This document shows, piece after piece, positions 19,453 to 43,197 of a stretch of 64,000 nucleotides of DNA. How positions within the stretch are numbered: position 1 is the first letter of the stretch; each line of letters starts with the position of its first letter. Source of the stretch: Pseudomonadota bacterium (lineage in GTDB: Bacteria; Pseudomonadota; Gammaproteobacteria; Burkholderiales; Rhodocyclaceae). Both the position numbers and the translations under genes were made by a program. The notes under the pieces were generated by a model that made no database searches, was not told the DNA's origin, and saw only the letters and a list, made by a program, of their open reading frames with translations. The stretch lies in assembly GCA_018241695.1 (NCBI GenBank), contig JAFEDH010000030.1, positions 62,001-126,000 on the forward strand. Direction: 5' to 3'.

Positions 19453-19468
19453 TTCCGGGAGTTCCGCG

Positions 19469-22886: not shown

Positions 22887-25220
22887 TTACCACTTGTAGT
22901 TGAAAGTCAGGCCATAGGTGCGGGGTTCCTGCCAGTTGGCCGTCTGGTACATGCCGAAATCAATCTTCTGGATCACCTTTTTTTCATCCGTCAGATTTTT
23001 GACCCAGAGCGAGATGTCCGCCTTGCCCGGGCCACCGACAGGGACGTCGGCCAGCAGCAGGCGGGCATTGATGTTCATCTGCGCTGGAACCTCGTCAATC
23101 CCTACAACATAGCTGCCACCGGCATTCGGTGCGGTGAGACTTTTATTGGCTGCATAGAGGTAGACCTTGGCGGTATAGGTGTAATCCACGATACCGCGCA
23201 GGGTGCCCCATGAGGTCTGGGCCAGTTTGCCGTCCAGGTTGAGATTGAGGGTGTGCTTGGGAGCATAGGGAGCCAGACGGTTGCTGGCAGTGTCGATCAG
23301 CGGACGTCCGGGAATGTTGAGAGCGTTGTCGATGTATTCGTCGAACTTGGTGTCGAGATAACCGTATCCGCCCTGCAGTGTCCAGCCGTCAGCGAGGATG
23401 ACCGCACCTTCCAGTTCGATACCCTGGTAGGTGGCTTTACCCGCATTCACCACGTAGGAAGAACTGGTGCCGGGAATCAGCTGGGTGATGTGCAGATCGG
23501 TGATCTTGTTCTGGAATACCGAAGCGTTCAAACGTGCACGGTTGTCGAGAAAAGTGGCTTTCACCCCCATTTCGAACGAAAGGGATTTCTCCGGGTTGAA
23601 GGGAGTCTTGATGATTGCGGCATTGGTCAGCTCGCCGTTGAATCCTCCACTCTTGAAGCCACGGGCAATCCGGGCGTACAGGCTGGTTTGCTCGCTCAGC
23701 TTGTAACCAACAGCGACCACGGGTGTATTCGCGCTCCACGAAGCGGCGTAGGAAACCATGGGGATGGTGCCCGGAGCAGCATCGGTCAGGAAGGGGCCGT
23801 TGAAACTGGTGGTGTAGTAGCGATGGGTCCAGCCACTCTTGGTTTCGGTCGTGTGACGCATGCCGAAGGTGGCGGTAAGGGCGTCGGTGACCTTGTAGTC
23901 GATCTGGCCGAACCATGCCTTGGCATCGGTTTTTACAGCATAGTCATCACGCACATAGGGCAGGCCGAAGAGGCTGAAATCCTGTGGTCCCAGGGTGGTG
24001 CCATCATCCTTGAACAGGTAGTAGCCCAGAACGTAATGGGCGCGATCGGTATGGCCGATCCACTGCAGTTCGTGTGAGTCCTGCTTGTATTGGGTATCCC
24101 GGTGATAGACCATCCCGGTGCCCCAGCGGTTGTTGGGTGGGACACCCGGCGCGGCGATGGAACCCATGGGCGCTCCGGAAAGGGAATTCGAATCGTGATA
24201 TTCCATTTTCCGGGTGGCGAAAATGTATTTCAGCTCATTGTTGTCGCTGAATTTGTGGCTGAAGATCAGGGTATGCCCGTCGGTCTTGTTCTTTTCATAC
24301 AGCGGGTAGCCGGTCTGGGTGCTGGTCGTGTCGGGCCGGTTGGTAACGATATAGGGCGTGAGCGCATTCTGGATCAGTCCTCCCAGATATCCGCCGAATA
24401 CGGAGGGGAAGGTACCCGACCAGCCACTGAGTGCGTACAGGGTGCTGGCTGGTGGCGTGTTGTTAATGTCGGAGTGATCGAATTTGTAGTCCAGGGTCGT
24501 GGCCGGGCTGAAGGCGAAGTTGGCCGCAAACCGGAAGGCTTCCTTGTCCCGTTTGCCCAATGCGCCTCCGACTCCCGAGGTGTTGTTGCTCATCCAGCCA
24601 TCCTGGTTTTCCTTGCGATAGCCGAAATTCAGGCTGGCGATCCCCATTTTGGGCAGGTCCATGGCCAGCTTCCAGACCGTGTGTCCGTAATTGCCGACTT
24701 CAAAGCCGGCACTCCCGCCAAATTCTCCGGAAGGCTTGCGGCTGATGAAACTGACCGCACCCCCTTCGGTGTTGCGACCGAACAGGGTGCCTTGCGGACC
24801 ACGCAGGACTTCGATGCGCTCCACGTCGATCACGTCGAAGACGCTGCCCTGGGCTTTGCCGATATAGACACCGTCCACGTAGATACCGACCGGGGGGTCC
24901 ATCCATATCGCGGGTTGACCGGTCACACTGCCCCGAATCGAAACCGTGGCGACCAGATTTGTGGAAGGATTGGGGCGAAACATCAGGTTGGGCGCCAGGG
25001 AGTTCAGATTGGCGAGCCCTTCGATGCCTCGATTCACCAGTTGGCTGCCGGAAAGTGCGGTAACCGCGATGGGCACATCCTGCAGGCGCTCTTCACGCTT
25101 CTGGGCAGTGATGACCACTTCTTCCAGGGCGCCGGCGGCGTAGCCCTGGCCGGCAAAGCTGGCTGCGATCAGGGCTGGAAGGACACGGACTGTAAGGCGA
25201 TGTTTCGCTGATTCTTTCAT
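22887..25220 (-). CDS. TonB-dependent outer-membrane receptor
   Basis: Outer-membrane active transporter of 777 aa. The signal peptide spans about residues 1-28 (ends QGYAAG). A TonB-box/plug start EEVVITAQKREERLQDVP follows, then the plug motif RGPQGTLFGRNTEGGAV. The chain ends with an aromatic residue (FNYKW) as expected for a beta-barrel. It belongs to the large group with the VITAQKREE box found in degraders of aromatic and steroid compounds and probably imports the growth substrate. GAGGGG precedes the ATG. It lies downstream of the large catabolic operon but behind its own AT-rich 255-base upstream region. Confidence 0.93.
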   Translation of the reverse strand: MKESAKHRLTVRVLPALIAASFAGQGYAAGALEEVVITAQKREERLQDVPIAVTALSGSQLVNRGIEGLANLNSLAPNLMFRPNPSTNLVATVSIRGSVTGQPAIWMDPPVGIYVDGVYIGKAQGSVFDVIDVERIEVLRGPQGTLFGRNTEGGAVSFISRKPSGEFGGSAGFEVGNYGHTVWKLAMDLPKMGIASLNFGYRKENQDGWMSNNTSGVGGALGKRDKEAFRFAANFAFSPATTLDYKFDHSDINNTPPASTLYALSGWSGTFPSVFGGYLGGLIQNALTPYIVTNRPDTTSTQTGYPLYEKNKTDGHTLIFSHKFSDNNELKYIFATRKMEYHDSNSLSGAPMGSIAAPGVPPNNRWGTGMVYHRDTQYKQDSHELQWIGHTDRAHYVLGYYLFKDDGTTLGPQDFSLFGLPYVRDDYAVKTDAKAWFGQIDYKVTDALTATFGMRHTTETKSGWTHRYYTTSFNGPFLTDAAPGTIPMVSYAASWSANTPVVAVGYKLSEQTSLYARIARGFKSGGFNGELTNAAIIKTPFNPEKSLSFEMGVKATFLDNRARLNASVFQNKITDLHITQLIPGTSSSYVVNAGKATYQGIELEGAVILADGWTLQGGYGYLDTKFDEYIDNALNIPGRPLIDTASNRLAPYAPKHTLNLNLDGKLAQTSWGTLRGIVDYTYTAKVYLYAANKSLTAPNAGGSYVVGIDEVPAQMNINARLLLADVPVGGPGKADISLWVKNLTDEKKVIQKIDFGMYQTANWQEPRTYGLTFNYKW

Positions 25221-25475: not shown

Positions 25476-25910
25476 TCATGTGCCCAAAGGCAGGCTGCGT
25501 TCGAGCAGGATTACGGGCATTTCGCGTCCGGCACGTTGCTCGTAACGGTCGTAAGGTGGATAGATCGCTACCATGCGCTGCCAGAGGGCGGGGCGCTCGG
25601 TCGCGGTGACCACGCGGGCCCGTACCGGAAAAACTTCGGCGCCAACCTGGATTACCGCTTCCGGGCAGGCTTGCAGGTTGCGGAACCAGTCGGGCGGATT
25701 GGGCGCTCCCGCCTTGGATGCGACCACGATGTAGCGACCGGCCGCGTCGGTTTCATACACCACAGCGACGGTTCGCACTAGCCTGCTGCGCCGGCCCCGT
25801 GTATCAAGCAGCAGACAGCGGGTGCCGTTGAAATGATGGCCCTCCGCGCCACCGGTTTCCCGGTAGCGTTTGATGTGTGACGCCATTTCTACGTAGGCGG
25901 AAGGGCTCAT
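25476..25910 (-). CDS. Nitroreductase/deazaflavin-dependent oxidoreductase family protein (DUF385, DDN-like)
   Basis: A 144-aa split-barrel protein. The block VVASKAGAPNPPDWFRNLQACPEA is the hallmark of the family of mycobacterial F420H2-dependent nitroreductase Ddn, and the C-terminal TERPALWQRMVAIYPPYDRYEQ fits too. Actinobacterial members use F420; whether this organism makes F420 or the protein uses another flavin is unknown. Last gene of the twelve-gene operon, overlapping the ferredoxin oxidoreductase gene by 4 bases. May reduce an enone or quinone intermediate (inference). Confidence 0.8.
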   Translation of the reverse strand: MSPSAYVEMASHIKRYRETGGAEGHHFNGTRCLLLDTRGRRSRLVRTVAVVYETDAAGRYIVVASKAGAPNPPDWFRNLQACPEAVIQVGAEVFPVRARVVTATERPALWQRMVAIYPPYDRYEQRAGREMPVILLERSLPLGT

Positions 25911-28900
25911 GCGTGGTCTCCTGAAAGGGCCGCGAGACTGTCTCCGGGCAGCCCCAGTGCCGCAATGTGCTGCTGTAAAGCAGCCAGGGTGGTGCGGGCA
26001 TTTTCTTCCTTGATCGTGTCATAGCCGCGCACATGCTCGGGAAAGGCGGCGATGGCAATGGCCGCTTCAAGCGTGTCGGGGCCGAGCTTGGGGAGCAGCT
26101 TGCGCATCACCGATTCGTAGGTGACGATGAGATTCCGCTCGAAGCGGCGATGGGCGGCGCGGCCGAATGGGTCGAAGGGTGTACCGCGCAGGAAGCGCAA
26201 GGAGGCCAGAAGGCGCAGGACGTGAAGCATCCAGGGGCCGAACTCGCGTTTGTCGATGCGACCGGTCTTTTTGTTGCGGGGCAGGATGGGGGGTGCCATA
26301 TGGAAGGTGATGCGGAAGTCGCCCTCGAAATCGCGTTGCAGGGATTCGATGAATCCACTGCGGGTATGCAGGCGGGCGACTTCGTATTCATCCTTGTAGG
26401 CCATCAGCTTGAACAGGTGGCGGGCGACCGTGGTCGTCAGCACTTCGCTGCCCAGCGCTGCTTCGGCACGCCGCACGGCGTCCACCAGCGCCTGATAGCG
26501 TCTGGCATAAGCGGCGTTCTGATAAGCCTCCAGTTCCTTACTGTGGAAGGCGATCCGTTCATCCAGAGTTTGTGTCCGGACCCGGGTGGCCGGCTTGGCC
26601 AGAATCTGTTCGACCAGGGCGGGCGTGTGCGCGAATGCGCGGCCCCAGGCGAAGGCCCGACGATTGGTGTCCACCGCGATGCCATTGATCTCGATGGCCT
26701 GTTCCAGCGCCGCTCTGGAGAGTGGTATCCCGCCTTGCTGGAAAGCATGGCCGAGAAGGAAAAGATTGCCGGCCACGGTGTCGCCAAAGCCCTTCATGGC
26801 GATCTGGGTGGCATCGAGTTCGCTGATTTGGTCACTGCCGACGCTTGCTGACAGGGTTTCCAGCATGGGTGCTGCGGAGAGCGCCATGTCGGGGTTCCGG
26901 GCAAAGGCGGAAGTGGGCGCCACATGGTTGTTCACCGTGATCCGGGTGCGTTGCGGCGATATGCGCGTGAGCACATCCGCCGCAGTGGCGACGACGATAT
27001 CGCAACCCAGGATCAGGTCTGCCGAACCGACGCCGATCCGGCTGGAGTGGATCTGTTCGGGTCGTGCGGCGAGACGGATATGGCTGGTGACGGCACCGTT
27101 GCGCTGGGCCAGTCCGGTGATGTCGAGCACCGAGCAGGCCTTGCCTTCCAGATGGGCCGCCATGCCCATCAGCGCACCGAGCGTGACGACGCCGGAGCCG
27201 CCGATGCCGGCAACCAGAATGTTGCAGGGCTGGTCGAGGCTGGCGGGCGGCGGATCGACGAGTCGGGCGATCACGGCATCCACGGCGCTGCCATCGGTGG
27301 TGGTGCTTTCGATCCTGCGCGGTTTCGCGCCGTAAAGCGAGACGAAACTGGGACAATAACCCTTGATGCAGGAATAGTCGTCATTGCAGACCGACTGGTT
27401 GACCTGGCGCTTGCGCCCCTGAGGGGTTTCCAGCGGTTCCAGGGCGATGCAGTTGGATTGCACGCCACAGTCGCCGCAGCCTTCGCAGACCGCAGGGTTG
27501 ATCACGATGTGACGCGGCGCCGTTGCCCATTTGCCGCGTTTGCGCCGCCGGCGTTTTTCGGTGGCGCAAACCTGGTCATACACCAGGGCGGTACAGCCGG
27601 GAATTTCACGCAACCTGCGCTGCACCTCATCGAGCCGGTCACGGTGGAAGATTTCCGTGGCCGGAGGAAAGTCGCCGCGATCAGCATATTTATCCGGCGC
27701 ATCGGTAACCACCGCCACCTGTCCGACACCGATCGACTCCAGTTGCCGCACGATATAGGCCACCGCGGCCTTGCCGGCGATAGGCTGACCGCCGGTCATG
27801 GCGATCGCATCATTCACCAGGATCTTGTAGGTGATGTTGGCACCCGAGGCCACCACGGCGCGGATCGCGAGCAGGCCGGAATGGGTGTAGGTGCCGTCCC
27901 CCATGTTCTGGAAGATATGGCGGGTTTCGGTAAAGGGGGCGATCCCCATCCACATCGCGCCTTCACCACCCATATGGGACAGGGCCAGGGTGCGCCGCTC
28001 CGGCAGCCAGAGGGCGAGTCCGTGGCAGCCGATGCCGCCCATGGCGACACTGCCTGCGGGGATATTGGTCGAGGTGTTGTGGGGGCAGCCTGCGCAAAAG
28101 GCCGGCATGCGGGTCAGGGAGGGTGCCTGTCCGGCGCCCGCGGGCTGCGCCGGAGCGCAGCCGGGTCGAATCTCGAGCGTCCGCCCCAGGGTCGCGGCCA
28201 GCGGCAACAGTCTTCGCGCCAACACGGGGGTGAGCGCCGCGGCGCTCAATTCGCCCACTTCGCTGATCAGCACGGCACCGGTTTCGTCGTGTTTGCCCAC
28301 CAGACGCGGCGCGACGGGGAGGTTGATCAGCAGGCGGGCGATCTGGTCCTCGATGATGCCGCGCTTTTCCTCGACGACGAGGATCTCTTCGACGCTTCCG
28401 GCAAGATCAAGAATGCCCCGGGGTTCCAGCGGCCAGGGGACAGCCACCTTGTAGATGACCACGCCCAGCCCGGCCAGGGCGGCATCGTCCAGCCCCAGTT
28501 CTTCCAGCGCCTGGCGCAGGTCGAGATAGGCCTTGCCGGTGGCGACGAGGGCGATGCGTCGCACGGGGGCATCCAGCATCACCCGGTCAAGGTGGTTGGC
28601 GCGGACAAATGCCTTCACCGCTTCCAGCCGCTCCTGATAGAGCCGCCGTTCGGATTCGATCGGCAGCACCCCCGCGCGCAGATTGAGGCCCTGCGGTGGC
28701 AGGGTGAAATCGTCCGGCTCGACAATCCGCACCCGGTCGGGATCGATATCCACCGAGGCGGAGGCTTCCACCGTGTCGGTGATGCACTTGAAGCCTACCC
28801 AGCAGCCCGAAAAGCGCGACAGGGCAATTCCGTAGAGCCCGTAATCCAGATATTCCTGAACATTGGCCGGATTCAGGTAGGGCATGCCGGCATGAATGAA

Positions 28901-29380
28901 AAAGGTGTCGCTCTGATGGGCGATGGTGGAGGATTTCGCGCCATGGTCGTCGCCGGCCAGCAGCAGCACGCCGCCATGCTTGGCGCTGCCGGCGTAATTG
29001 CCGTGCTTGATGGCATCACCCGAACGGTCCACGCCGGGGCCTTTGCCATACCAGAGGGCAAATACGCCGTCATAGGGGGATTTTCCGAACTGGGCCACCT
29101 GCTGGCTGCCCCAGACGGCGGTAGCCGCCAGATCCTCGTTCAGGCCGGGCTGAAAGCGGACATGGTGTTCGTCCAGATGTACGCGCGCCTGGGCCAGGGC
29201 AAAGTCGTAGGTGCCCAGCGGCGAGCCGGTATAGCCTGAAATGTAGCCAGCGGTGTTGAGTCCCGCCATCACGTCGCGCTGGCGCTGCATCAGGGGGAGG
29301 CGCACGAGCGCCTGGGCGCCGCTGAGATAGACCCGTCCGGTACGGGCGGTGTACTTGTCTTCGAGAGTGACCTGCTTCAT
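25907..29380 (-). CDS. Fused indolepyruvate-type 2-oxoacid:ferredoxin oxidoreductase
   Basis: A 1157-aa single-chain enzyme of the indolepyruvate ferredoxin oxidoreductase type that converts a 2-oxoacid to acyl-CoA and CO2 with thiamine diphosphate and Fe-S clusters. Domains in order: N-terminal pyrimidine-binding half; a middle region with FCAGCPHNT and the ThDP-binding GIGCHGLA / GDGTYTHSG segments; a ferredoxin-like stretch with CEGCGDCGVQSNC and a second Cys cluster (CNDDYSC, then KGYCPS); and a gamma domain (VAGIGGSGVVTLGALMGMAA). Start at 29380 places it 4 bases after the VOC gene stop; upstream in-frame starts overlap that gene. It is an uncommon member of an apparently aerobic, oxygenase-containing operon. 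Confidence 0.9.
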   Translation of the reverse strand: MKQVTLEDKYTARTGRVYLSGAQALVRLPLMQRQRDVMAGLNTAGYISGYTGSPLGTYDFALAQARVHLDEHHVRFQPGLNEDLAATAVWGSQQVAQFGKSPYDGVFALWYGKGPGVDRSGDAIKHGNYAGSAKHGGVLLLAGDDHGAKSSTIAHQSDTFFIHAGMPYLNPANVQEYLDYGLYGIALSRFSGCWVGFKCITDTVEASASVDIDPDRVRIVEPDDFTLPPQGLNLRAGVLPIESERRLYQERLEAVKAFVRANHLDRVMLDAPVRRIALVATGKAYLDLRQALEELGLDDAALAGLGVVIYKVAVPWPLEPRGILDLAGSVEEILVVEEKRGIIEDQIARLLINLPVAPRLVGKHDETGAVLISEVGELSAAALTPVLARRLLPLAATLGRTLEIRPGCAPAQPAGAGQAPSLTRMPAFCAGCPHNTSTNIPAGSVAMGGIGCHGLALWLPERRTLALSHMGGEGAMWMGIAPFTETRHIFQNMGDGTYTHSGLLAIRAVVASGANITYKILVNDAIAMTGGQPIAGKAAVAYIVRQLESIGVGQVAVVTDAPDKYADRGDFPPATEIFHRDRLDEVQRRLREIPGCTALVYDQVCATEKRRRRKRGKWATAPRHIVINPAVCEGCGDCGVQSNCIALEPLETPQGRKRQVNQSVCNDDYSCIKGYCPSFVSLYGAKPRRIESTTTDGSAVDAVIARLVDPPPASLDQPCNILVAGIGGSGVVTLGALMGMAAHLEGKACSVLDITGLAQRNGAVTSHIRLAARPEQIHSSRIGVGSADLILGCDIVVATAADVLTRISPQRTRITVNNHVAPTSAFARNPDMALSAAPMLETLSASVGSDQISELDATQIAMKGFGDTVAGNLFLLGHAFQQGGIPLSRAALEQAIEINGIAVDTNRRAFAWGRAFAHTPALVEQILAKPATRVRTQTLDERIAFHSKELEAYQNAAYARRYQALVDAVRRAEAALGSEVLTTTVARHLFKLMAYKDEYEVARLHTRSGFIESLQRDFEGDFRITFHMAPPILPRNKKTGRIDKREFGPWMLHVLRLLASLRFLRGTPFDPFGRAAHRRFERNLIVTYESVMRKLLPKLGPDTLEAAIAIAAFPEHVRGYDTIKEENARTTLAALQQHIAALGLPGDSLAALSGDHA

Positions 29381-29384
29381 GGGT

Positions 29385-29789
29385 TCAGGGTTGCTGGCAC
29401 ATGACTTCGATGGCATTGCCATCCGGATCCTCGATCACCGCCACGGCCACGCCGGGCCGCAGATCGGTGTAATCCTGCTGCACCGTGACACCGGCTGACT
29501 TCCAGCCGGTCAGGTCGCTTTGCAGATCGGCCACCTGGATACTCATGGCACGCAGGCCGAGGGCCGCAAGGATGGGGCCGGGCAGTGCGGGCGGCAGCGC
29601 TGCGGTGCCGGCTGGCGCGACCAGCCGGATCAGGCTCTGGCCACAGGCCATGCGGACGATGCGGGCGATATCGGGAATGTCCACCTCGCCTTGCACCGGA
29701 AAGCCGAGCCGGTCGCGATAAAAGGCCACCATGTCGGCTTGCCGGCGTGTCACCAGCACGATGTCGATGGCGGATTTTTTGAGTTCCAT
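29385..29789 (-). CDS. VOC-superfamily (glyoxalase/bleomycin-resistance fold) protein
   Basis: Single-domain vicinal-oxygen-chelate protein of 134 aa: beta-alpha-beta repeat beginning DIVLVTRRQADMVAFYRDRLGFPV, and ending in the metal-ligand Glu segment VIEDPDGNAIEVM. Members act as epimerases, lyases or dioxygenases on CoA esters and other small molecules. Touches the DUF35 gene (no gap) and lies 4 bases before the oxidoreductase gene. By context a methylmalonyl-CoA-epimerase-like or isomerase role on a pathway intermediate is possible but unproven. Confidence 0.78.
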   Translation of the reverse strand: MELKKSAIDIVLVTRRQADMVAFYRDRLGFPVQGEVDIPDIARIVRMACGQSLIRLVAPAGTAALPPALPGPILAALGLRAMSIQVADLQSDLTGWKSAGVTVQQDYTDLRPGVAVAVIEDPDGNAIEVMCQQP

Positions 29790-30242
29790 TCAATTCTCCT
29801 TGGATGAGATCCTGATCCAGCAGGGCAGGGTGACGTCCTCCGTCAGCTGGCGGAAGCACAGTCGCACCCGGTCGCCGATGGCGATTGCGGTATCGCGGCT
29901 GGCACCGATATCGGCATCGGGTGTGGTCAGCAGATTGCCGATCATGCGTATGCCTGGCACGCCTTCCGGCTCAACGACCACCACGCGATAGGGTGCGAGG
30001 GCCTGATAGGCCGGCAGCAGGGGCGGGTGCACGGTGACGAAAGACCAGATGCGGCCCGACTCTCCGGCCGGCACCCATGCCAGGGGGCCATGGCAGCCGG
30101 GACAGAACACCCGTGGTGGAAAGTGATGGCTGGCGCAGGCCTCGCAGTGCTGCACCAGCAGGCGACCCTGTCGGGTGGCAGCCCAGAAGGCGGCGTCGAC
30201 CGGATTGTCGGTCACGGGCAGTATCCACGCTTCAGCAGCCAT
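29790..30242 (-). CDS. DUF35 (Zn-ribbon + OB-fold) acyl-CoA-binding protein
   Basis: A 150-aa stand-alone DUF35 protein. The N-terminal rubredoxin-like zinc ribbon has two Cys pairs (CEACASHHFPPRVFCPGC) and is followed by an OB-fold (GRIWSFVTVH, then YRVVVVEPEGVPGIRMIG). DUF35 proteins are obligate partners of thiolase-superfamily enzymes; in the cholesterol pathway the DUF35 domain of ChsH2 binds the aldolase Ltp2. Here it is one base downstream of an Ltp2-like, Cys-less thiolase, so the two probably form one enzyme. Confidence 0.87.
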   Translation of the reverse strand: MAAEAWILPVTDNPVDAAFWAATRQGRLLVQHCEACASHHFPPRVFCPGCHGPLAWVPAGESGRIWSFVTVHPPLLPAYQALAPYRVVVVEPEGVPGIRMIGNLLTTPDADIGASRDTAIAIGDRVRLCFRQLTEDVTLPCWIRISSKEN

Positions 30243-30243
30243 T

Positions 30244-31389
30244 TCAGTTCCTCAGCAGCAAGGCGCTGGTGGGTGTGGCATCGCAGGAAGTCACCAGGCA
30301 GGTGGCGGCACCGGCCACCTGGTTTTGCGCTGTGCCGCGCAGCTGGCGCACGCCTTCGGTGATCAGGTTGAAGCCGTGGATATAGGCTTCGGAAAGGCTG
30401 CCGCCGGCGGTGTTGACCGGCAGGCGTCCCCCGTTCACGGCAATGCCGCCCGATTCGACAAACGCGGCGGCTTCCCCCCGGCCACACAAGCCATAGGCTT
30501 CCAGGGAAAACAGGATCAGGGGCGAGAAGGCGTCGTAGATCTGCGCAACCTGGATATCGGCAGGACCGATGTCGGAACCCTGCCAGAGCTTGCGTGCGGC
30601 TACCGCGGATGCGCTGGCGAAAGGATCGGCACCGAATACGTCGGGCATGTTCTGCTGGCCCCGGGCCAGCCCTTGCGACCAGGCATGGATGTAGGCCGGG
30701 CGCTGGCGGCAGTCCTGCGCGTGGTCGCGGCGGGCCAGCACCACAGCCACCGCGCCATCGGACTCCAGGCAGTTGTCGAACAGGCACAGGGGATCGCTGA
30801 TCATGCGTGCCGCCTGGTATTCGGCGAGGCTGAGGGGACGGTTGTGCATCATGGCGCGGGGATTGTTCAGCGCGTGGTTGCGCAGGGTCACCGCGATGTG
30901 CCCCAGTGTGTCGCGACTGGCGCCATGGTCGTGGAAATAGCGCCGGGCCAGGAGCGCCACTTCATCCACCGGGCGCAGCAGGCCCCAGGGCTGTGACCAT
31001 TTCCAGTGATTGTTGAGCCGTGGCGGCGTCTGCGCCCAGACCCGTGAAGCCTTGCCGCTGCGCTTGCGCGCACGCCACACCACCGCCACATTGGCCTGCC
31101 CGGTGGCTATGGCCATTGCCGCCTGGCCGACGATGCCGCAGCCGGCGCCTCCACCGTAATGGACGCGGCTGAAAAAGGAAAGATCACCGAAGCCCAGGTT
31201 GCGGGCATATTCGAATTCTGGCGTTTCTTCCATGGTGTAGCAGGCCACGCCGTCCACTTCGCCGGCGGCAATGCCGGCATCCTGCAAGGCATTGCGGATG
31301 GCGCTGCAGCCCAGTTCCAGCTCGCTTTCGGTAAAGCCCTTGCCGAAGGACGTTTCACCTATGCCGACGATGGCAACCTGATCCTTCAT
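30244..31389 (-). CDS. Thiolase-superfamily protein lacking the catalytic Cys (Ltp2-like aldolase candidate)
   Basis: A 381-aa thiolase-fold protein. Where thiolases have the nucleophilic Cys (VNNNCATG in SCP2) this has VHYGGGAG, so the residue is Gly80. The GHPxGATG His segment is replaced by SEAYIHGF with Tyr336 at that position, and another Tyr lies in IYDAF (Tyr285). Ltp2, the retro-aldolase that removes the last side-chain unit in bacterial cholesterol catabolism, also lacks thiolase residues and has been reported to use two tyrosines about 50 residues apart (from memory). With the DUF35 gene directly downstream, C-C cleavage of a 3-hydroxyacyl-CoA is the best prediction. Overlaps the crotonase gene by 4 bases. 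Confidence 0.82.
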   Translation of the reverse strand: MKDQVAIVGIGETSFGKGFTESELELGCSAIRNALQDAGIAAGEVDGVACYTMEETPEFEYARNLGFGDLSFFSRVHYGGGAGCGIVGQAAMAIATGQANVAVVWRARKRSGKASRVWAQTPPRLNNHWKWSQPWGLLRPVDEVALLARRYFHDHGASRDTLGHIAVTLRNHALNNPRAMMHNRPLSLAEYQAARMISDPLCLFDNCLESDGAVAVVLARRDHAQDCRQRPAYIHAWSQGLARGQQNMPDVFGADPFASASAVAARKLWQGSDIGPADIQVAQIYDAFSPLILFSLEAYGLCGRGEAAAFVESGGIAVNGGRLPVNTAGGSLSEAYIHGFNLITEGVRQLRGTAQNQVAGAATCLVTSCDATPTSALLLRN

Positions 31390-32129
31390 GCCGGCAGATC
31401 CCGGGGCGGGTAGGCGCCGGCCAGGGCCAGGGTAGCCACGCGCGCTTCACGGGCCAGGGCGGCATCGAAGCCGGAATGTGCGCCGTGGCGCAGGGCTTCG
31501 CGCATTTCCACCAGTACGGCCGGATCGATCCGGTTGAGGCGCTCGCAGAGAGTCCGTACGGCAGGCTGCAATTCATTCTCCGCCAGCACCCGGTTCACCA
31601 GGCCGGCGTCCAGCGCCGCATCGGCATCGATGGGCTCGCCCAGCATCAGCCATTCGGTGGCCTTGCGCACACCGACACGGCGCGGCAGGTGATAGGTGGC
31701 ACCCAGTCCGGGAGGAATGTTGAGGCTGGCGAAGGGAAGCACGAAGCGGGCGCTGCGCGCGGCAAGGAGCAGATCGAAGCCGAGAATCGCGGTGACGCCG
31801 ATACCTGCGGCGGGGCCATTGATCGCGGCGATGGTGGGTTTGGGATAGTGATGGATGAGCGGGGCGAATTCGCGCAGGAAGGGCGCATCGCCCAGCCGCC
31901 GCAGGCGCTCCGGATCGTTCTGCACCTCGCGGTCGGCACCGGCGCAAAAGCCGCGGCCCGCGCCGGTCAGCACCACCGATCTGACCGCCGGGTTGTCGCG
32001 ATGTGCAAGAAAGGTGGCGAGCAGCGCATCGCCCATTTCCGGCGTGAACGCATTGAGCTTGTCGGGCCGGTTGAGAATCACCCAGGCGGTGCCCGCTTCC
32101 TGGCGATGGATGAGGATGTCGTCGCTCAT
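31386..32129 (-). CDS. Enoyl-CoA hydratase/isomerase (crotonase family)
   Basis: A 247-aa crotonase. Oxyanion segments GRGFCAGADREVQ and INGPAAGIGVTAILGFDLLL are present; the third conserved segment is FASLNIPPGLGATYHLPRRVG. I start it at the ATG at 32129, which overlaps the stop of the upstream crotonase by 4 bases; the longer open frame to 32723 only shadows that gene. One of two adjacent, clearly different crotonases, so two separate hydration, isomerisation or ring-cleavage steps are likely. Confidence 0.9.
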   Translation of the reverse strand: MSDDILIHRQEAGTAWVILNRPDKLNAFTPEMGDALLATFLAHRDNPAVRSVVLTGAGRGFCAGADREVQNDPERLRRLGDAPFLREFAPLIHHYPKPTIAAINGPAAGIGVTAILGFDLLLAARSARFVLPFASLNIPPGLGATYHLPRRVGVRKATEWLMLGEPIDADAALDAGLVNRVLAENELQPAVRTLCERLNRIDPAVLVEMREALRHGAHSGFDAALAREARVATLALAGAYPPRDLPA

Positions 32130-32908
32130 TTCTGCCCCGGCTTTTTCCATTGTGGCGGGCGCTTTTCGGCGAAGGCCCGCGGTCCCTCGGAAAAATCGGG
32201 ATGTTGGGTATGGCCGATGATGAGTTGCCAGGCATTTTCCAGTGAAGCCTGCAAGCCCTTGTCCAGCGACTGCCAGATCGCCTGTTTGGTGCGCGCCAGC
32301 GCGGCGGGGGAATGGCGCGCGATGGCGCTGGCCAGTTCGAGTGCCCGCGCCTGCAGGCCGTCGGCGGGCACCACCTCGCTGACCAGCCCCATGCGTTCCG
32401 CCAGCACGGCACTCACCCGTTCGGCGCCACCCATCAGCGCCATGCGCAGGACATGGCCCAGGGGGATGCGCCGTGCGAGCATCACCGGCTCCAGTCCGGA
32501 GACGAAACCCACCGCGACATGGGGGTCCGAAAACCATGCGTTGTCGGCGGCAATGACGATATCGGCATCGGCAACGAAATGCAGCCCGCCTCCCACGGCC
32601 ATGCCGTTGACGGCGCAGATCACCGGCTTGCTCACCTGGTTCTGCAGGGGGGTCCAGCGAATTGAATCGATGCTCTGCGCCGTATCCGTTTCGGGTGGTT
32701 CGAGCAGATCGGCACCGGTGCACAGGGCGCGCTGGCCGGCACCGGTGAAGATTGCCACCCGCGCCTCCGGATCGGTTTCGAATCGCTGCCAGACCCGCGG
32801 CAACTCCAGGCTCATTGCCTGGTTGATGGCGTTGAGCCGGTCGGGCCGGTTGAGGACGATCCGGGCAATGCCGTCGGTGACGCTGTATTCCAGGGTGGTG
32901 AAGCTCAT
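32126..32908 (-). CDS. Enoyl-CoA hydratase/isomerase (crotonase family)
   Basis: A 260-aa crotonase. It begins with FTTLEYSVTDGIARIVLNRP, has the oxyanion segments ALCTGADLLEPP and VNGMAVGGGLHFVADADIVI, and ends with the typical AFAEKRPPQWKKPG. The start at 32908 overlaps the thiolase stop by 4 bases; a start at 32938 would run deeper into that gene. In some crotonases ring opening of a cyclic beta-keto acyl-CoA replaces hydration, which is possible here given the extradiol dioxygenase in the operon. Confidence 0.9.
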   Translation of the reverse strand: MSFTTLEYSVTDGIARIVLNRPDRLNAINQAMSLELPRVWQRFETDPEARVAIFTGAGQRALCTGADLLEPPETDTAQSIDSIRWTPLQNQVSKPVICAVNGMAVGGGLHFVADADIVIAADNAWFSDPHVAVGFVSGLEPVMLARRIPLGHVLRMALMGGAERVSAVLAERMGLVSEVVPADGLQARALELASAIARHSPAALARTKQAIWQSLDKGLQASLENAWQLIIGHTQHPDFSEGPRAFAEKRPPQWKKPGQK

Positions 32909-34056
32909 TTCTCCATTCCCAGAATGGTGATGGCGCAACCGGTGGGGAATCCGCCGATGTTATGGGTCAGCGCTGTGACCGGACGGCGCCTGAGGTTGCG
33001 CTCGCCCGCCTCGCCACGCATCTGGCGGATGTTTTCGTAGAGCATGCGCACCCCGGTCGCGCCCGTGGGGTGGCCGAACGATTTCAGCCCGCCGTCGGTG
33101 TTCACCGGCAGTTCGCCATCGAATGCGAAGGTGCCGGCCGTGATGTGTTCCTTCGCCGCCCCCTTGGCGCACAGGCCCAGATCCTCGTAGGCCAGAAGCT
33201 CGGTCAGCGTGAAGCAGTCGTGCACCTGGCACAGTTCGATCTGGCGGAAGGGGTCGCTGATGCCGGCCATCCGGTAGGCTTCGGCGGCGGCATTTTCCGT
33301 CGGCTTCCAGCGCAGGAAATCGTGATCGGGATCGGTATGCGGATTGGCGGCGCTACCGCTGGCGACCGCCTTTACCCAGACCGGATCTTTGGGGTAGCTG
33401 CGTGCATGCGCGGGCGAGCTGATGATGACCGCCGCCGCGCCGTCGGACTGGCCGGCACAGTCGAACAGGCCGAAGGGCCAGGCGATCATGCGCGCCTTGA
33501 GCACATCGTCCACCGTGACCACCTTCTTGATGAAGGACTTGGGCGCATGGGCGCCATTGGCGTGGTTTTTCACCGCGATACGGGCGAGATCCTCGCGTCC
33601 CGCGCCATATTTTTTGAAGTAGGGCGCGGCGCACAGGGCGAACCAGGCCGCCGGTGTGCCGGGCAGATCGCGCACGCCACGTATGGTCACGGAAGGCCCG
33701 GAGACGCCGCGATCCTTGGGTTTGTCGTAGCCGACGACCAGCACAGTGTCATAGACTCCGGCGGCCACCGCCATGACCCCGGCGCGGAAGGCCTCGGTGC
33801 CGGTGGCGCAGTAGTTGGAGACCGCGGTCATGGGTTTGTAGAGCTTGAGGGCTTCGCTCACTTCCACCGGGCCGAGCTGGGAATAGAGCGAGCCACAGTA
33901 GATGGCATCGATCTGGCGCCGTGGATCCTCGATGCCGGCATCGGCGTAGGCTTCGAGAACGGCGTCGACGATCATGTCCTCGGGGCCTTGATCCCAGTTC
34001 TCGCCGAACTTGCAGCAGCCCGCGCCAACCACGGCGGCCTTGTTGCGCAATGTCAT
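32905..34056 (-). CDS. Thiolase (SCP2/SCPx-type acyltransferase)
   Basis: A 383-aa thiolase of the lipid-transfer/SCP2 group. Unlike the other thiolase-like protein in this operon it keeps the catalytic Cys83 (SNYCATGTEAF) and His329 (FGHPTGATG). Probably performs CoA-dependent cleavage of a bulky 3-ketoacyl-CoA. It overlaps by 4 bases the gene for an HMG-CoA-synthase-like/DUF35 fusion. Archaeal acetoacetyl-CoA thiolase and HMG-CoA synthase are known to form a complex bridged by a DUF35 protein, so a similar assembly is plausible here. Confidence 0.9.
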   Translation of the reverse strand: MTLRNKAAVVGAGCCKFGENWDQGPEDMIVDAVLEAYADAGIEDPRRQIDAIYCGSLYSQLGPVEVSEALKLYKPMTAVSNYCATGTEAFRAGVMAVAAGVYDTVLVVGYDKPKDRGVSGPSVTIRGVRDLPGTPAAWFALCAAPYFKKYGAGREDLARIAVKNHANGAHAPKSFIKKVVTVDDVLKARMIAWPFGLFDCAGQSDGAAAVIISSPAHARSYPKDPVWVKAVASGSAANPHTDPDHDFLRWKPTENAAAEAYRMAGISDPFRQIELCQVHDCFTLTELLAYEDLGLCAKGAAKEHITAGTFAFDGELPVNTDGGLKSFGHPTGATGVRMLYENIRQMRGEAGERNLRRRPVTALTHNIGGFPTGCAITILGMEK

Positions 34057-35471
34057 GGCAGCTTGCCTCGCACAGGGGTGACTTTCCAGAAATAGTTGGG
34101 GCGCCTGCCCACCTGATGAATGCGGCGGAAGGTGAATTCCACTTCCGTTCCGATCCCGATTTCGTCCGCATCCGCATCGGTGGCCTGCAGATAGAGGCGC
34201 GGTCCGCCCGCCACCTCGGTTACGGTGATCACCGTGGGTGGACTCGGGTTGGGAAAAAATGCGTCGCGTGAATAGGTAATCACCGATCCATGGCGATCAG
34301 CGTAGCGGACGGGCTGGAAGTGATCGGCACAGCCGCAGCGCACGCAGATCCGGCCCTTGGGGAACTGATGGGTGCCGCACTGGCACACCTGGCCTTCCAG
34401 CGAGAGATTGGCATCGCGCTCCCGATAATGCGCCGTGGCGGAATTGCCCGGTTCGCCGCCGGGCTCGAATTCGGTGGCCAGCAGTTGTCGTGCGCTCAGA
34501 TACCAGGCATGGCTCACGACCCGGCCGAGGGCCTCCTGGCCAGCAAGAGAGCGAGCAGGCGGCGGCGGGGCGACATCGAGCTCGATCATGGCGGCATCGG
34601 CACCATCACCATAATTGGCCAGCAGCAGGCGTTCGCCGGCTTGCGCCTCCTCAAGGCCGGCACACAGCTGCAGCAGGGCGAACGATGCCCCGGTACAGCC
34701 GATGCGGCCCGGCCAGTCGCGTCCGATCACACGTTCGAGCGGCAGATGATGGGCTGCCGCAATTTCGCGGAGGCTGCGTGAATCGGGCGCGTACAGGGCG
34801 ATGCGGTCGATGCGCTGCAGGTTGCCGCCTTCCGCTTTTGCCATCGCATCCAGGGCACGACCGATCTGATCCTTGTAGCCATGGTCGAGGATGAAGCGGT
34901 TTTCCCAGCCATGGACGAAGCGCTCGCCGGCACCACGCCAGACATCCAGCATTTCGTTGCTCAACTGGACCGGAACGCCAATACGGCCGAAACCGCCACG
35001 ATTGCCCAGCAGCAGGGCCGCGCCGGCATCGCCGAATTCCAGTTCGGCAGCATCGCCGGGCGTCATCTGGCGCACATCGCCTGCGATCACCAGGCAGGAA
35101 GCGATGCGGCCGCTGGCCACCAGGGCGCCCGCGGCATGCAGCGCCTGGGTGCCGGAACGGGTGCTGGCGGTAATGTCGAACGTCATGACGTCATCGCGCA
35201 ATCCCAGGGTTTTGGCGGCAATCGCGGCGCCCTGCTTTTCACCATAGGGTGCGCTGGTGGTGGCGAAGATGAGCGCGTCGATCTCGCTGCGATCCATGTT
35301 GCCAGCGCCGGCCAGAGCATTGCGGGCCGCGGCGACGGCCAGGGTCAGGCTGTCCTCGTCCGGGCCGGCGAGGGTGCGCGCTGTGCTGCCCTTGCGCCCG
35401 AGGCTGGCCGCCGTGAGGCGGTGGATGGGCAGATAGGCGCCATAAGCGATGATGCGGGCATCCATGGTCAT
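34053..35471 (-). CDS. HMG-CoA-synthase/KAS III-like protein fused to DUF35, catalytic Cys replaced
   Basis: A 472-aa two-domain protein. Residues 1 to about 340 have the KAS III/HMG-CoA synthase thiolase fold (IIAYGAYLPIHR, later FGDAGAALLLG). Residues about 345-472 are a DUF35 module with zinc-ribbon cysteines 363, 365, 376 and 379 and an OB-fold. At the nucleophile position the sequence is DITASTRSG, with Thr104 where homologues have Cys (DVTNACYGG). By eye the His and Asn segments are also altered: APDS where HQAN is expected and GCTG where GNTG is expected. It may be a scaffold or an enzyme with new chemistry. Four-base overlaps on both sides tie it to the SDR and the thiolase. Confidence 0.83.
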   Translation of the reverse strand: MTMDARIIAYGAYLPIHRLTAASLGRKGSTARTLAGPDEDSLTLAVAAARNALAGAGNMDRSEIDALIFATTSAPYGEKQGAAIAAKTLGLRDDVMTFDITASTRSGTQALHAAGALVASGRIASCLVIAGDVRQMTPGDAAELEFGDAGAALLLGNRGGFGRIGVPVQLSNEMLDVWRGAGERFVHGWENRFILDHGYKDQIGRALDAMAKAEGGNLQRIDRIALYAPDSRSLREIAAAHHLPLERVIGRDWPGRIGCTGASFALLQLCAGLEEAQAGERLLLANYGDGADAAMIELDVAPPPPARSLAGQEALGRVVSHAWYLSARQLLATEFEPGGEPGNSATAHYRERDANLSLEGQVCQCGTHQFPKGRICVRCGCADHFQPVRYADRHGSVITYSRDAFFPNPSPPTVITVTEVAGGPRLYLQATDADADEIGIGTEVEFTFRRIHQVGRRPNYFWKVTPVRGKLP

Positions 35472-36379
35472 GCTTCCGCTCCGCGCGGGCGCACACCATC
35501 GTGAAAGGGATAGGGCTTGCCCAGGATGCCGAAGGCGCCGAATTCCTGCGGCAGGTGCAGATTGAAATAGCGCACGATTTCCTCCAGCGTCCAGCCGCCG
35601 GGGCGGATCAGGGTTTTGCCGTAATGAGGCTGCACCATATGGGAAATGCGCTCACCGCCAGTGCCGAAGATCTGGCCGCTGACGTGGCCGGCCAGATGGC
35701 TGCAGAGGAACACGACCATCGGTCCATTGAGTGCGGGATCGATCCAGTCGGCGACAGCGGCGGGCTTGTCACCCTTGTAAGTGTCGGACATGCCGGTCGA
35801 ACCGAGGGGGCCGATGGCGTTGACGCGAATGCCTTCCTTCGCCAGTTCGGTGGCCCAGGTGTAGGTCATGGAGGCGATGGCACCCTTGGCCGCGCTATAG
35901 GCGGTCTGGCCGAAACTGCCGAAGTGGGCGCCAGAAGTGGTATTGACGATGGCACCGCCGTGGCCCTGTGTCTTCATGCGCAGCGCCGCGGCCTGGGCGC
36001 ACCAGAAGGTGCCTTTGACATGTACGCGCCAGACCGCATCGAATTCCTCGTCGGTGCACTTGAGAAAGCTGCGGTCGCGCAGATTGCCGGCGTTGTTGAC
36101 CAGGATGTCGATGGCGCCAAAGGCACTGACACAATCGGCGATCAAACGCTCGGCGCCGGCGCGGCTGCCGATATCGGCCTGGCTGCCGATCGCCTTGCCT
36201 CCGGCGGCCTCGATTTCGTGGACAACCGTTGCGGCCCGTTCCGCATCCAGGTCGTTGACCATCACGCTGGCGCCGGCGGCGGCCAGATGCAGGCAGTGCC
36301 CGCGGCCGATGCCCTGACCGCCGCCGGTGACCACGGCGGCCTTTCCGGCGAGAAGCCGGGTGAGATCGAGATCGTTCAT
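35468..36379 (-). CDS. SDR, HSD17B4/MFE-2-type (3R)-hydroxyacyl-CoA dehydrogenase candidate
   Basis: A 303-aa SDR with TGGGQGIGRG near residue 18, NNAG at 95-98, and Tyr161-xxx-Lys165. The segment RDRSFLKCTDEEFDAVWRVHVKGTF resembles the SDR domain of peroxisomal multifunctional enzyme type 2, which oxidises (3R)-hydroxyacyl-CoA. That fits the MaoC-type hydratases upstream, which make the R isomer. Start at 36379 overlaps the acyl-CoA dehydrogenase stop by 4 bases; the open frame continues to 36976 as a shadow of that gene. Substrate specificity is inference. Confidence 0.85.
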   Translation of the reverse strand: MNDLDLTRLLAGKAAVVTGGGQGIGRGHCLHLAAAGASVMVNDLDAERAATVVHEIEAAGGKAIGSQADIGSRAGAERLIADCVSAFGAIDILVNNAGNLRDRSFLKCTDEEFDAVWRVHVKGTFWCAQAAALRMKTQGHGGAIVNTTSGAHFGSFGQTAYSAAKGAIASMTYTWATELAKEGIRVNAIGPLGSTGMSDTYKGDKPAAVADWIDPALNGPMVVFLCSHLAGHVSGQIFGTGGERISHMVQPHYGKTLIRPGGWTLEEIVRYFNLHLPQEFGAFGILGKPYPFHDGVRPRGAEA

Positions 36380-37500
36380 GGAGTCTCCAGGGGGCCGAAC
36401 ATGCGTTCGGCGATACGGTCCTCCAGCGTCGCAGGATCGCCGTTGAATAGTTGCAGATGCTTGGCGCGGCGGAAGAAAAGCTGGGGATCGGCTTCGAGGG
36501 TGAAGCCGAAGCCGCCGTGCACCTGGATGGAAACCGCCGATGCCTTGCGCAGCACCGCAGTGTTGAACAGTTTGGCCTGATTCGCAGCCTGGGCGTTGTC
36601 GATGCCTGTATCGGCCTGCCAAGCGGCGTAATAGGCGAAGCTGCGGGCCGCGTCCACCTCTGTTGCCATCTCTGCAAGATAGTGGGCAATCGCCTGGAAT
36701 GCGCCGATCGGCTTGCCGAACTGCTCCCGTTCCTTGGCGTAGTTCACCGACATCTCCTGCACCGCCTGGGCTGCTCCGGCAGCAAAGGCGGCCTGGAGCA
36801 TGCCACCCTGATCGAGCACGGACTCCCAGGTCGACCAGAAGGTGCCGCCCGCGAGGCTTCCTTGCACCGGAGCGGCTTCCATACGTATCTCGCACAACCC
36901 GTCGTTGCCCAGGCTGGGCTGCGGGGAAATGGTCACGCCCGGTCCGCGCGGATCGAGCAGGAACCCTGCCGGACAACCCTCGATATCGCGTGCGATGACG
37001 ATGATCAGATCCGCATCACTGGCGAAAGGAACCAGATGCTTGATGCCGTCGATTACCCGCTGATCCGCATGCAGCCTGGCTTCGGCCCGGATGCCGCTCG
37101 GGGTGGTGCTGCGTCCCGGTTCATCGATGGCGATCGTGGCGATGCACGTGCCACTGGCCAGTGCGGGCAGCCATCGTCGGCGCAAGGCGGCATCACCACA
37201 GGTGCCGATCAGGCGCGCCGCCAGATAGGCACTGACGAAATGGGGTGAGCAGGCCAGTCCGCGGCCCAGTTCTTCGTAGAGCACCGCAGCGCCGACCTGG
37301 TCGAGAGCGATGCCGCCATCCTCCCCGGAAATGAAAATGCCGCAGAAACCGGCTTCGCCCAGGGCGTTCCAGATTTCGGGGGCATAGCCCTTGCCCGCGG
37401 CTTCGGCGCGGCGCAGGGCGGGGAGGGATTGAGCCTTCCGGCACAGGGCGCGAACGCTCTCCCGCAGCAGAATCTGGTCTTCGGAGAAATCAAAATCCAT
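36376..37500 (-). CDS. Acyl-CoA dehydrogenase
   Basis: FAD-dependent acyl-CoA dehydrogenase of 374 aa: MDFDFSEDQILLRESVRALC at the N-terminus, KEREQFGKPIGAFQAIAHYLA and IQVHGGFGFTLEADPQLFF in the C-terminal domain. The middle domain lacks the canonical TEPxxGSD segment, as in the short subunit at 13546. It could pair with the acyl-CoA dehydrogenase at 40562 in a heteromeric enzyme, although that gene is in the neighbouring operon. Starts 12 bases after the extradiol dioxygenase stop. Confidence 0.9.
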   Translation of the reverse strand: MDFDFSEDQILLRESVRALCRKAQSLPALRRAEAAGKGYAPEIWNALGEAGFCGIFISGEDGGIALDQVGAAVLYEELGRGLACSPHFVSAYLAARLIGTCGDAALRRRWLPALASGTCIATIAIDEPGRSTTPSGIRAEARLHADQRVIDGIKHLVPFASDADLIIVIARDIEGCPAGFLLDPRGPGVTISPQPSLGNDGLCEIRMEAAPVQGSLAGGTFWSTWESVLDQGGMLQAAFAAGAAQAVQEMSVNYAKEREQFGKPIGAFQAIAHYLAEMATEVDAARSFAYYAAWQADTGIDNAQAANQAKLFNTAVLRKASAVSIQVHGGFGFTLEADPQLFFRRAKHLQLFNGDPATLEDRIAERMFGPLETP

Positions 37501-37512: not shown

Positions 37513-38499
37513 TCAGCGCTGGCCAGTGTTGTCGTCCTGCAGTCCGGATGCCATTTCCGCAATCGCCTCGACGGTCAGGCCCTTGTGGCCCCAGACATCT
37601 CCCTCGCAGAACTGGTTGGGAACCCAGTGCTCGTCGATCTGTACCGGATCGCAACCGATTTCCACATCGAAGCCGGAGGGGCCGCGCATGTAGAAGGACA
37701 GCATGTGGTCATTGGTGTGGCGGCCGAGGGTGCTGGTGATCGTCATACCTGCCTTTTGCACCCGGTCCATGATGCAGCCGACCTGATCGATACCGGTCAC
37801 CTCGAACATGACGTGATGCAGCCCCCTGATGTCTCCCACCTTGACCATGCCGACACTGTGGTGGCGCTGGTTGCAATGAAGGAACTGGATCGACATGCCT
37901 GCCTCGGCATTGATCACCAGGTAGTCGCTCAGGCGCATGCCCAGTGCGCGGGTGTAATACTCGTAGGTCGTATCGATATCGTCGACGAACAGGTTCACGT
38001 GGCCGAATCCCACTTTCCCGGCCACGAAGCTGATTCCCAGCGGGGAGTGGAAACGGTAATCGCGGGTGGGGCCGACATAGATTTCGATCGCGTTGCCCAT
38101 CGGGTCGCGGCTGTGTGCCAGATGACGCACACTGCGCGCGGCGGCTTCGGCCGGCGTTCCGTTCCTGACCGGCGCACCGGTGGTCTTCAGGCGTTCCAGC
38201 GTGGTACGGAAGCCTTCCTCGTCGCCGGCATCGAAGCCGAGATAGCGCAATCCTTCCGCACCGGGATGAACGGCAACCCGCCATTGGTGATCGTCCAGCT
38301 TCAGATAGACCGAGCCGTCCGGGCCGATGCCGGAACCCTGGCTGGCCGGACCGGGATTGTCGGGATCGCCGGGCATGCCCCAGCTTTCTCCGGGCCATGC
38401 ACGCGCCGGCATCATGCCCAGAATGCGGGTCCCGTACTGCAGCCATTGCTCCGGTGCGTGGGCACCGATGCCGATATATCCCAGGGCTGAAACGCTCAT
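37513..38499 (-). CDS. Type I extradiol ring-cleavage dioxygenase (BphC/HsaC-like)
   Basis: Fe(II)-dependent meta-cleavage of a catechol-type ring; 328 aa with two VOC domains. Predicted metal ligands are His167 (GFGHVNLF), His229 (LHHVMFEV) and Glu280 (FDVEIG), with the second-shell His-His of QRHHSVG and Tyr270. The C-terminal STLGRHTNDHMLSFYM and the following Gly-Phe-Asp-Val-Glu block strongly resemble HsaC of steroid ring degradation and BphC of biphenyl degradation. It is roughly 30 residues longer than HsaC, with a Gly/Pro-rich insert at residues 31-62. First gene of the twelve-gene operon, behind an operator at 38517-38530. Confidence 0.92.
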   Translation of the reverse strand: MSVSALGYIGIGAHAPEQWLQYGTRILGMMPARAWPGESWGMPGDPDNPGPASQGSGIGPDGSVYLKLDDHQWRVAVHPGAEGLRYLGFDAGDEEGFRTTLERLKTTGAPVRNGTPAEAAARSVRHLAHSRDPMGNAIEIYVGPTRDYRFHSPLGISFVAGKVGFGHVNLFVDDIDTTYEYYTRALGMRLSDYLVINAEAGMSIQFLHCNQRHHSVGMVKVGDIRGLHHVMFEVTGIDQVGCIMDRVQKAGMTITSTLGRHTNDHMLSFYMRGPSGFDVEIGCDPVQIDEHWVPNQFCEGDVWGHKGLTVEAIAEMASGLQDDNTGQR

Positions 38500-42973: not shown

Positions 42974-43016
42974 GTCACGCTCCTTTTGATCCGGCTCCAA
43001 AACCATACGATACGAT

Positions 43017-43030: not shown

Positions 43031-43183
43031 GGCAAGAGGGATCGCTTGGCTTCTGCATGAGATGGGTCATCCGTGAGTACCGCATACCTGTTGCCTGACT
43101 GGAAGAATCGACACGATATTCGCTTTTATAAAAATTGTTGATGTTTCATCGTGGTTGGGATAATGTTACAAAAAAGAAACAGA

Positions 43184-43197
43184 CCGTTTCGTTTTGT
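43184..43197. promoter_or_regulatory. Weak operator-like match in the TonB receptor leader
   Basis: CCGTTTCGTTTTGT agrees with the extradiol-side operator (ACGTTTCGTACCGT) at 10 of 14 positions, keeping the CGTTTCG core but not the second half. It would lie downstream of the putative receptor promoter, where a repressor could act. Possibly chance. Confidence 0.25.

Follow-up and report, generated by a model that had tools for sequence, protein, structure and literature searches.

Genes at the locus

The window, by which we mean the whole analysed stretch of 64,000 nucleotides, carries on its reverse strand a gene for an Ltp2-like thiolase-fold protein and, directly after it, a gene for a stand-alone DUF35 protein (Table 1). 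The second gene follows as closely as the original prediction described: base 30243 alone lies between the stop codon of the first gene and the ATG of the second.

Table 1. Features of the window, in order of position
Feature	Position	Strand	Basis
Second TonB-dependent receptor	22887..25220	(-)	
Indolepyruvate:ferredoxin oxidoreductase family (IOR), EdcC-like	25907..29422	(-)	family search; 53% to ES2-1 protein
VOC protein, VOC gene of edc clusters	29385..29789	(-)	family search; 33% to ES2-1 VOC
Stand-alone DUF35 protein, 150 aa, zf-ChsH2 zinc ribbon and OB fold, proposed aldolase partner	29790..30242	(-)	Pfam, PDB sequence search
Ltp2-like thiolase-fold protein, 381 aa, proposed catalytic subunit of aldolase	30244..31389	(-)	sequence, structure model, tree
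Codon of Tyr336, aligned with TcLtp2 Tyr344 (catalytic acid)	30382..30384	(-)	alignment
Codon of Ala287, aligned with TcLtp2 His296 (oxyanion-hole residue of YDHF)	30529..30531	(-)	alignment
Codon of Tyr285, aligned with TcLtp2 Tyr294 (catalytic base)	30535..30537	(-)	alignment
Codon of Gly80, position of the thiolase nucleophile Cys	31150..31152	(-)	alignment
Enoyl-CoA hydratase family, start set at Met before domain	31386..32129	(-)	family search; 39% to ES2-1
Enoyl-CoA hydratase family, BadI-like position of edc clusters	32126..32938	(-)	55% to ES2-1
True SCP2-type thiolase, Cys, HDCF and GHP motifs	32905..34056	(-)	family search; 72% to ES2-1
HMG-CoA-synthase-like protein fused to DUF35, nucleophile Cys absent	34053..35471	(-)	family search, alignment
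Short-chain dehydrogenase (SDR), start approximate, ORF runs to 36976	35468..36379	(-)	family search; 66% to ES2-1
Acyl-CoA dehydrogenase 1	36376..37500	(-)	family search
Extradiol dioxygenase, EdcB-like	37513..38499	(-)	37% to ES2-1; 43-54% to edc-cluster relatives
TetR-type regulator, EdcR position	38584..39174	(-)	translation judged by eye
MaoC-type hot-dog protein	39200..39664	(-)	
MaoC-type hot-dog protein	39661..40086	(-)	26.9 bits, just below Pfam cut-off of 27
MaoC N-terminal-type hot-dog protein	40083..40559	(-)	38% to ES2-1 MaoC2
Acyl-CoA dehydrogenase 2	40562..41752	(-)	57% to ES2-1
Cytochrome P450, EdcA-like	41771..43006	(-)	50% to ES2-1
TonB-dependent receptor, EdcT position	43151..45814	(+)	

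The original prediction did not mention the surroundings of this gene pair, which form an estrogen-degradation (edc) type of cluster, with its genes found between 22887 and 45814. The set typical of such clusters is present: cytochrome P450, extradiol dioxygenase, IOR, thiolase, HMG-CoA-synthase-like (HMGCS-like) protein, SDR, acyl-CoA dehydrogenase, enoyl-CoA hydratase (ECH), VOC protein, MaoC proteins and TonB receptor. The same set is found on plasmid p3 of Novosphingobium sp. ES2-1, which we take to be an estradiol degrader. Gene-by-gene comparison with ES2-1 covered the cluster except the TonB receptor, and the Ltp2-like protein is 61% identical to the lipid-transfer protein (LTP) of that strain. 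According to the gene list in the accessible part of PMC7793797, the edc cluster of N. tardaugens has the same content. In the edc/oec cluster of N. tardaugens NBRC 16725 a 'lipid-transfer protein' (EGO55_13535) and a 'chsH2-like hydratase' (EGO55_13530) hold the same place and are probable orthologues of our pair, likened by gene list only. While N. tardaugens is a sphingomonad, the window comes from a beta/gammaproteobacterium, and while EGO55_13530 is annotated as a hydratase, the counterparts examined in ES2-1, Croceicoccus estronivorus and others consist of DUF35 parts only. The placement of the window among the beta/gammaproteobacteria follows from the aspartokinase of its genome, which shares 69-71% identity with the enzymes of a Comamonadaceae bacterium, Pseudomaricurvus and Parahaliea and 54-57% with those of four alphaproteobacteria. 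Elsewhere in the window (1318-6086) an aldehyde dehydrogenase, a PQQ-type dehydrogenase with a cytochrome c domain and a LuxR-type regulator stand in a row.

The cluster encodes three proteins of the thiolase superfamily, of which the Ltp2-like protein alone has the tyrosine pair of the aldolases. The thiolase keeps Cys, HDCF and GHP in 13/13 sequences, and the HMGCS-like-DUF35 protein has its nucleophile Cys replaced in 12/12, the window being included in both counts; the ordinary HMG-CoA synthase mechanism is therefore unavailable to the latter. This bears on an explanation that gives the aldol cut to the HMGCS-like-DUF35 protein (34053-35471) and leaves to the Ltp2-like pair another C-C cleavage or an auxiliary part. 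HMG-CoA synthase working in reverse would cleave a tertiary 3-hydroxyacyl thioester. The HMGCS-like protein also brings its own DUF35, and the accessible text of PMC7793797 assigns it no role. Against this stand the loss of the nucleophile and the complete tyrosine pair of the Ltp2-like protein, and we regard the explanation as improbable. The HMGCS-like-DUF35 protein might serve the adjoining thiolase as a partner without catalytic activity of its own. The archaeal thiolase/DUF35/HMGCS complex (6esq, 6et9) and benzoylsuccinyl-CoA thiolase (7pxp) share a thiolase fold and a DUF35 partner with the Ltp2-like pair, but they are named thiolases and match the Ltp2-like model with lower Z (48.4 and 45.0, respectively). 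It is the thiolase and HMGCS-DUF35 genes of the window that resemble these systems more.

Fold and active site of the Ltp2-like protein

The Ltp2-like reading frame (30244-31389, reverse strand) scores 516 bits for NCBIfam PRK07855 'lipid-transfer protein' (cut-off 469), and its best PDB sequence is 6ok1_A, TcLtp2 of Thermomonospora curvata (E 9.9e-90); both matches are beyond chance. Superposition on the Ltp2-ChsH2 DUF35 complex had been proposed as a check of the original prediction. For the AlphaFold2 model of the Ltp2-like protein (built from a 30-row alignment; pLDDT 91.8), 6ok1 comes first among structures (Z 59.5, rmsd 1.5 Å over 373 residues). Second is CtSal (9myr), the bile-acid aldolase of Comamonas testosteroni (Z 51.1), and Foldseek likewise places TcLtp2 and then CtSal at the top.

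The active-site residues named earlier were all found where they had been predicted. Gly80 shares its alignment column with the Cys of SNYCATG in the cluster thiolase (32905-34056), with Gly83 of TcLtp2 and with Gly89 of CtSal. Tyr336, within SEAYIHG, corresponds to the His of the thiolase GHP motif when the ungapped register after NTxGG is compared by eye, and the second tyrosine, Tyr285, is part of QIYDAF. The two tyrosines are 51 residues apart, as compared to 50 for Tyr294 and Tyr344 of TcLtp2, which are described in the accessible part of PMC12329534 as catalytic base and catalytic acid. Gly80, Tyr285 and Tyr336 are kept in all 23 aligned rows of the clade to which the window protein belongs. 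Equivalents of Tyr294, Tyr344 and His346 and the Gly at the thiolase Cys position add to the likeness with TcLtp2 in fold.

Pfam and NCBIfam place the protein among the thiolases, as would be expected if it worked as a thiolase or acyltransferase by way of an acyl-enzyme. The thiolase signature, however, is Cys, HDCF or an equivalent, and the GHP His, and all three catalytic positions (nucleophile Cys, HDC Cys and GHP His) are replaced here, the protein having Gly80, YDAF and EAYIHG. We find this alternative hardly credible. Identity with Sal is rejected on motif. CtSal resembles the window protein in its thiolase fold, its DUF35 partner Shy and the equivalents of Tyr302 and Gly89, but it uses Cys304 of YDCY as the acid and has no second Tyr, whereas the window protein has Ala in YDAF and Tyr336. 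Moreover, Shy is a fused DUF35-MaoC protein and the DUF35 protein of the window is unfused.

A point absent from the original prediction is that the YDHF motif of Ltp2 has become YDAF. The His of this motif is an oxyanion-hole residue in Ltp2, according to the accessible part of PMC12329534; it is His296 in TcLtp2 and Ala287 in the window protein. Ala occupies this position in 23/23 rows of the window clade, while the 22-row Ltp2 clade has His in 20/22 and Ala in 2/22 (L109, L096). With these two YDAF rows excluded by choice, the remaining 20 Ltp2 rows differ from the window clade at Arg108, Lys109, Arg139 and Glu143, which are fixed or nearly so in the 23 rows; TcLtp2 lacks these clade-specific residues as well. 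In the alignment, Arg139 adjoins the column of Gln161 of CtSal, an oxyanion-hole residue, and Glu143 adjoins that of CtSal Tyr165, which belongs to the active site. Arg108 and Lys109 are found close to where the beta4-alpha4 loop begins; in thiolase-fold aldolases this loop helps to form the wall of the pocket (PMC12329534, accessible part). Judged from the alignment, the four residues would lie close to the substrate.

Clade, DUF35 partner and gene linkage

In a maximum-likelihood tree of 62 rows the window protein falls in a separate 23-row clade (support 100/98), outside the clade formed by the Ltp2 rows (100/99). This tree was built without the YDxF columns, omits eight long-branch rows and keeps only 5 YDCF rows. 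The 23-row clade appears also in a quick tree of 89 rows (SH-aLRT 99), which comprises LTP matches of at least 205 bits over at least 330 query residues in the fetched loci, duplicates removed, together with the window protein, TcLtp2, a CtSal fragment and the Sal encoded upstream of the window (L094). Identity between the window protein and the YDHF rows of the Ltp2 clade is 43-48%; for the characterised Ltp2s of Comamonas and Mycobacterium a mutual identity of 61-64% is given in the accessible part of PMC12502768. Croceicoccus estronivorus MH-B5, an estrogen degrader according to published work, has two members of the window clade, 61% and 59% identical to the window protein. Matches at the clade level (E 1e-110) were obtained in 13/397 genomes of Sphingomonadaceae, the family of C. 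estronivorus, and in 1/398 sampled genomes of the phylum of the window, the one being its own.

In another clade, rich in sphingomonads and Rhodospirillales (L050, L053, L055, L065 and others), YDCF with its Sal-like Cys occurs together with a second Tyr as in Ltp2, and a DUF35 gene adjoins. This active-site combination is apparently uncharacterised. The window's own genome has two further YDAF/Tyr336 proteins with DUF35 nearby (L095 9233-10378 on C2 and L096 9660-10781 on C19), which group with the Ltp2 clade.

Fold, the two tyrosines and the 'lipid-transfer protein' annotation would all suit a canonical Ltp2, an enzyme that cleaves off the C17 side chain of cholate or sterols in the form of propionyl-CoA. 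This identity is disfavoured by the separate clade, by YDAF in place of YDHF with its missing His, by the 43-48% identity to the YDHF rows and by the fact that the genome has a YDHF Ltp2 of its own, and we reject it as very improbable. That Ltp2 is encoded upstream of the window on the same contig, beside a ChsH2-like protein of 358 aa in which a FAS1-type hot-dog domain is fused to DUF35. A YDCY Sal is likewise encoded upstream, beside a Shy-like DUF35-MaoC protein of 313 aa. Side-chain cleavage is therefore covered by the genome's own Ltp2-ChsH2 and Sal-Shy systems, to which the window pair adds a third with a task of its own. The upstream stretch (L094, C23:42001-62000) holds a ChsE/ChsH/Ltp2-like set and the Sal-Shy-like pair at 5485-10483 and 17561-19764, so that modules for the side chain and for the estrogen ring lie together on one contig. 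DUF35 matches in this genome number 8 in all.

The DUF35 protein (29790-30242) gives Pfam matches to zf-ChsH2 (E 3.3e-12) and OB_ChsH2_C (E 2.6e-13), i.e. DUF35 parts only, and its best PDB sequence is 6ok1_B, the DUF35 chain of the TcLtp2 complex (E 3.6e-12). The original prediction had set it apart from mycobacterial systems by the lack of fusion to a MaoC domain. A fusion is truly absent, but as a distinction this is rejected, as most of the sampled relatives have a DUF35 gene that is separate. Membership of the Ltp2 group is not decided by it either, because several actinobacterial YDHF rows also adjoin unfused DUF35 genes. Among 22 distinct loci of the window clade, DUF35 lies within 0.5 kb of the LTP gene in 13 and 4-6 kb away in 8; at the remaining locus, a truncated one, no DUF35 gene was found. 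The DUF35 proteins of the clade measure 138-164 aa in 21/21 (nearest-start lengths), and Pfam, run on 10 of the 21 frames from stop to stop, recognises DUF35 parts alone in 10/10. A custom hot-dog HMM matched none of the clade DUF35 frames, but it also missed the hot-dog domain of the ChsH2-like protein in L094, so its result carries no weight by itself. Most of the zinc-ribbon Cys residues are missing from the DUF35 proteins of Parahaliea (L031 11166-11573) and Pseudomaricurvus (L132 9890-10333).

The 22 loci were fetched at about 20 kb for most, several being cut by contig ends or by the bounds of the stretch. IOR is present in 15/22 of them and an extradiol dioxygenase in 12/22. In two Streptomyces genomes and one Actinomycetes MAG with clade members, searches for an IOR (E 1e-50) and for an extradiol dioxygenase (E 1e-20) found neither, while the Maritimibacter genome gave an IOR at 46% only and no extradiol dioxygenase at E 1e-20; because of these four genomes, clade members cannot be said always to go with the full edc pathway. 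In the two Streptomyces loci (L033 and L090) the clade members are part of LTP-DUF35-ECH groups, EdcB and EdcC not being found genome-wide at the thresholds used. Second clade copies occur in Sphingomonadaceae (L130, L141, L143) in a small group of LTP, IOR, DUF35 and ECH, with no extradiol dioxygenase in the fetched 20 kb.

These distributions feed the main rival to a role specific to estrogen, namely that the same retro-aldolase chemistry has as its native substrates a wider range of acyl-CoAs from ring-opened steroids or terpenoids, estrogen being just one use. It is favoured by the actinobacterial members, for which no EdcC or EdcB is recognisable, by Maritimibacter and Parahaliea, which lack a close EdcB, and by the sphingomonad second copies. 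On the other side, an extradiol dioxygenase is near the gene in the window and in the 12 loci counted above, and the missing EdcC does not exclude estrogen as substrate in Actinobacteria, because other enzymes are reported for the EdcC step there (PMC12507874, accessible part). Overall the broader role seems rather unlikely to us, although it is the strongest of the alternatives.

Proposed reaction and its meaning

The Ltp2-like protein together with DUF35 is a clear variant of a known steroid-cleaving enzyme and no new kind. From its sequence, motifs, fold model and gene linkage we infer that the pair probably forms a heteromeric retro-aldolase of the Ltp2-DUF35 type for estrogen A/B-ring degradation, cutting C9-C10 to give HIP and acetyl-CoA. 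In the original prediction the pair was a retro-aldolase acting on a branched 3-hydroxyacyl-CoA. The part concerning an Ltp2-like retro-aldolase with DUF35 has good support from the sequence, from superposition of the model and from the context of the pathway. Its substrate, however, is very probably a B-ring-opened estrogen intermediate and not a branched side chain, and the enzyme belongs to a separate clade without the oxyanion His, which is not canonical Ltp2.

In the 4,5-seco pathway, as given in the accessible part of PMC11446756, C2-C3 are removed by thiolysis and the B ring is opened by hydrolysis, after which an aldolytic step takes off C1 and C10 and yields HIP. The window pair is the best candidate for this aldolytic cut. 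The cluster's thiolase, which has Cys, HDCF and GHP, could perform the thiolytic step. A tertiary 9-hydroxyacyl-CoA would be made from the B-ring-opened intermediate by acyl-CoA dehydrogenase and MaoC (or ECH) enzymes. Since the clade DUF35 counterparts that were examined have no hydratase domain, hydration would fall to the ECH or MaoC proteins. With a tertiary 9-hydroxyl no 3-ketoacyl-CoA can form and thiolysis is not available; the reason is the same as for Ltp2, where the tertiary alcohol at C17 is stated to be why an aldolase is needed (PMC11321319, accessible part).

In the proposed mechanism Tyr285 would take the proton of the 9-hydroxyl, the C9-C10 bond would break and HIP would leave with its ketone at C9. 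The enolate would be protonated by Tyr336 to acetyl-CoA, which contains C10 and C1, and the DUF35 protein would buttress the active site. Given Ala287, the thioester oxygen would have to be held by a group other than the oxyanion His. Arg139, or Arg108 and Lys109 of the beta4-alpha4 loop, are candidates for binding either this oxygen or the free propanoate of the substrate. Compared to TcLtp2-ChsH2, the pair has in common a DUF35 partner gene and, as proposed, conversion of a tertiary beta-hydroxyacyl-CoA to a ring ketone. It differs in that DUF35 ends a hydratase there and is encoded alone here, and in that TcLtp2 releases propionyl-CoA at C17 whereas release of acetyl-CoA at C9-C10 is proposed for the window pair.

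It is conceivable, though we offer it tentatively, that the clade represents a third type of thiolase-fold retro-aldolase, next to Ltp2 with its Tyr/His/Tyr and Sal with its Tyr/Cys. Such an enzyme would be of the Tyr/Tyr kind without His, would use clade-specific Arg and Lys to stabilise the enolate or the substrate carboxylate, would release HIP from a ring-opened seco-steroid acid along with acetyl-CoA, would work with a free-standing DUF35 and would be common to alpha-, gamma- and probably betaproteobacteria and to actinomycetes.

As to the literature, the accessible part of PMC7793797 says that the edc genes, the HMGCS-like and VOC genes excepted, were each given a step in Figure 1 of that paper, and it speaks of an aldolase that takes part in forming HIP, so the place of the lipid-transfer gene at the aldolase step may already be in print by way of that figure. 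In the accessible literature text, figures aside, we did not find the edc lipid-transfer protein named as the aldolase, which is no proof of absence. The HIP-forming aldolase figures in the accessible texts as a drawn step only, and the DUF35 gene is listed as a hydratase.

HIP formation is the junction at which estrogen breakdown meets the common steroid pathway. A concrete gene pair with a testable change in the active site makes the HIP aldolase step assayable. The pair also gives markers for estrogen degraders beyond sphingomonads, and a natural variant without the His helps to ask which residues a thiolase-fold aldolase needs.
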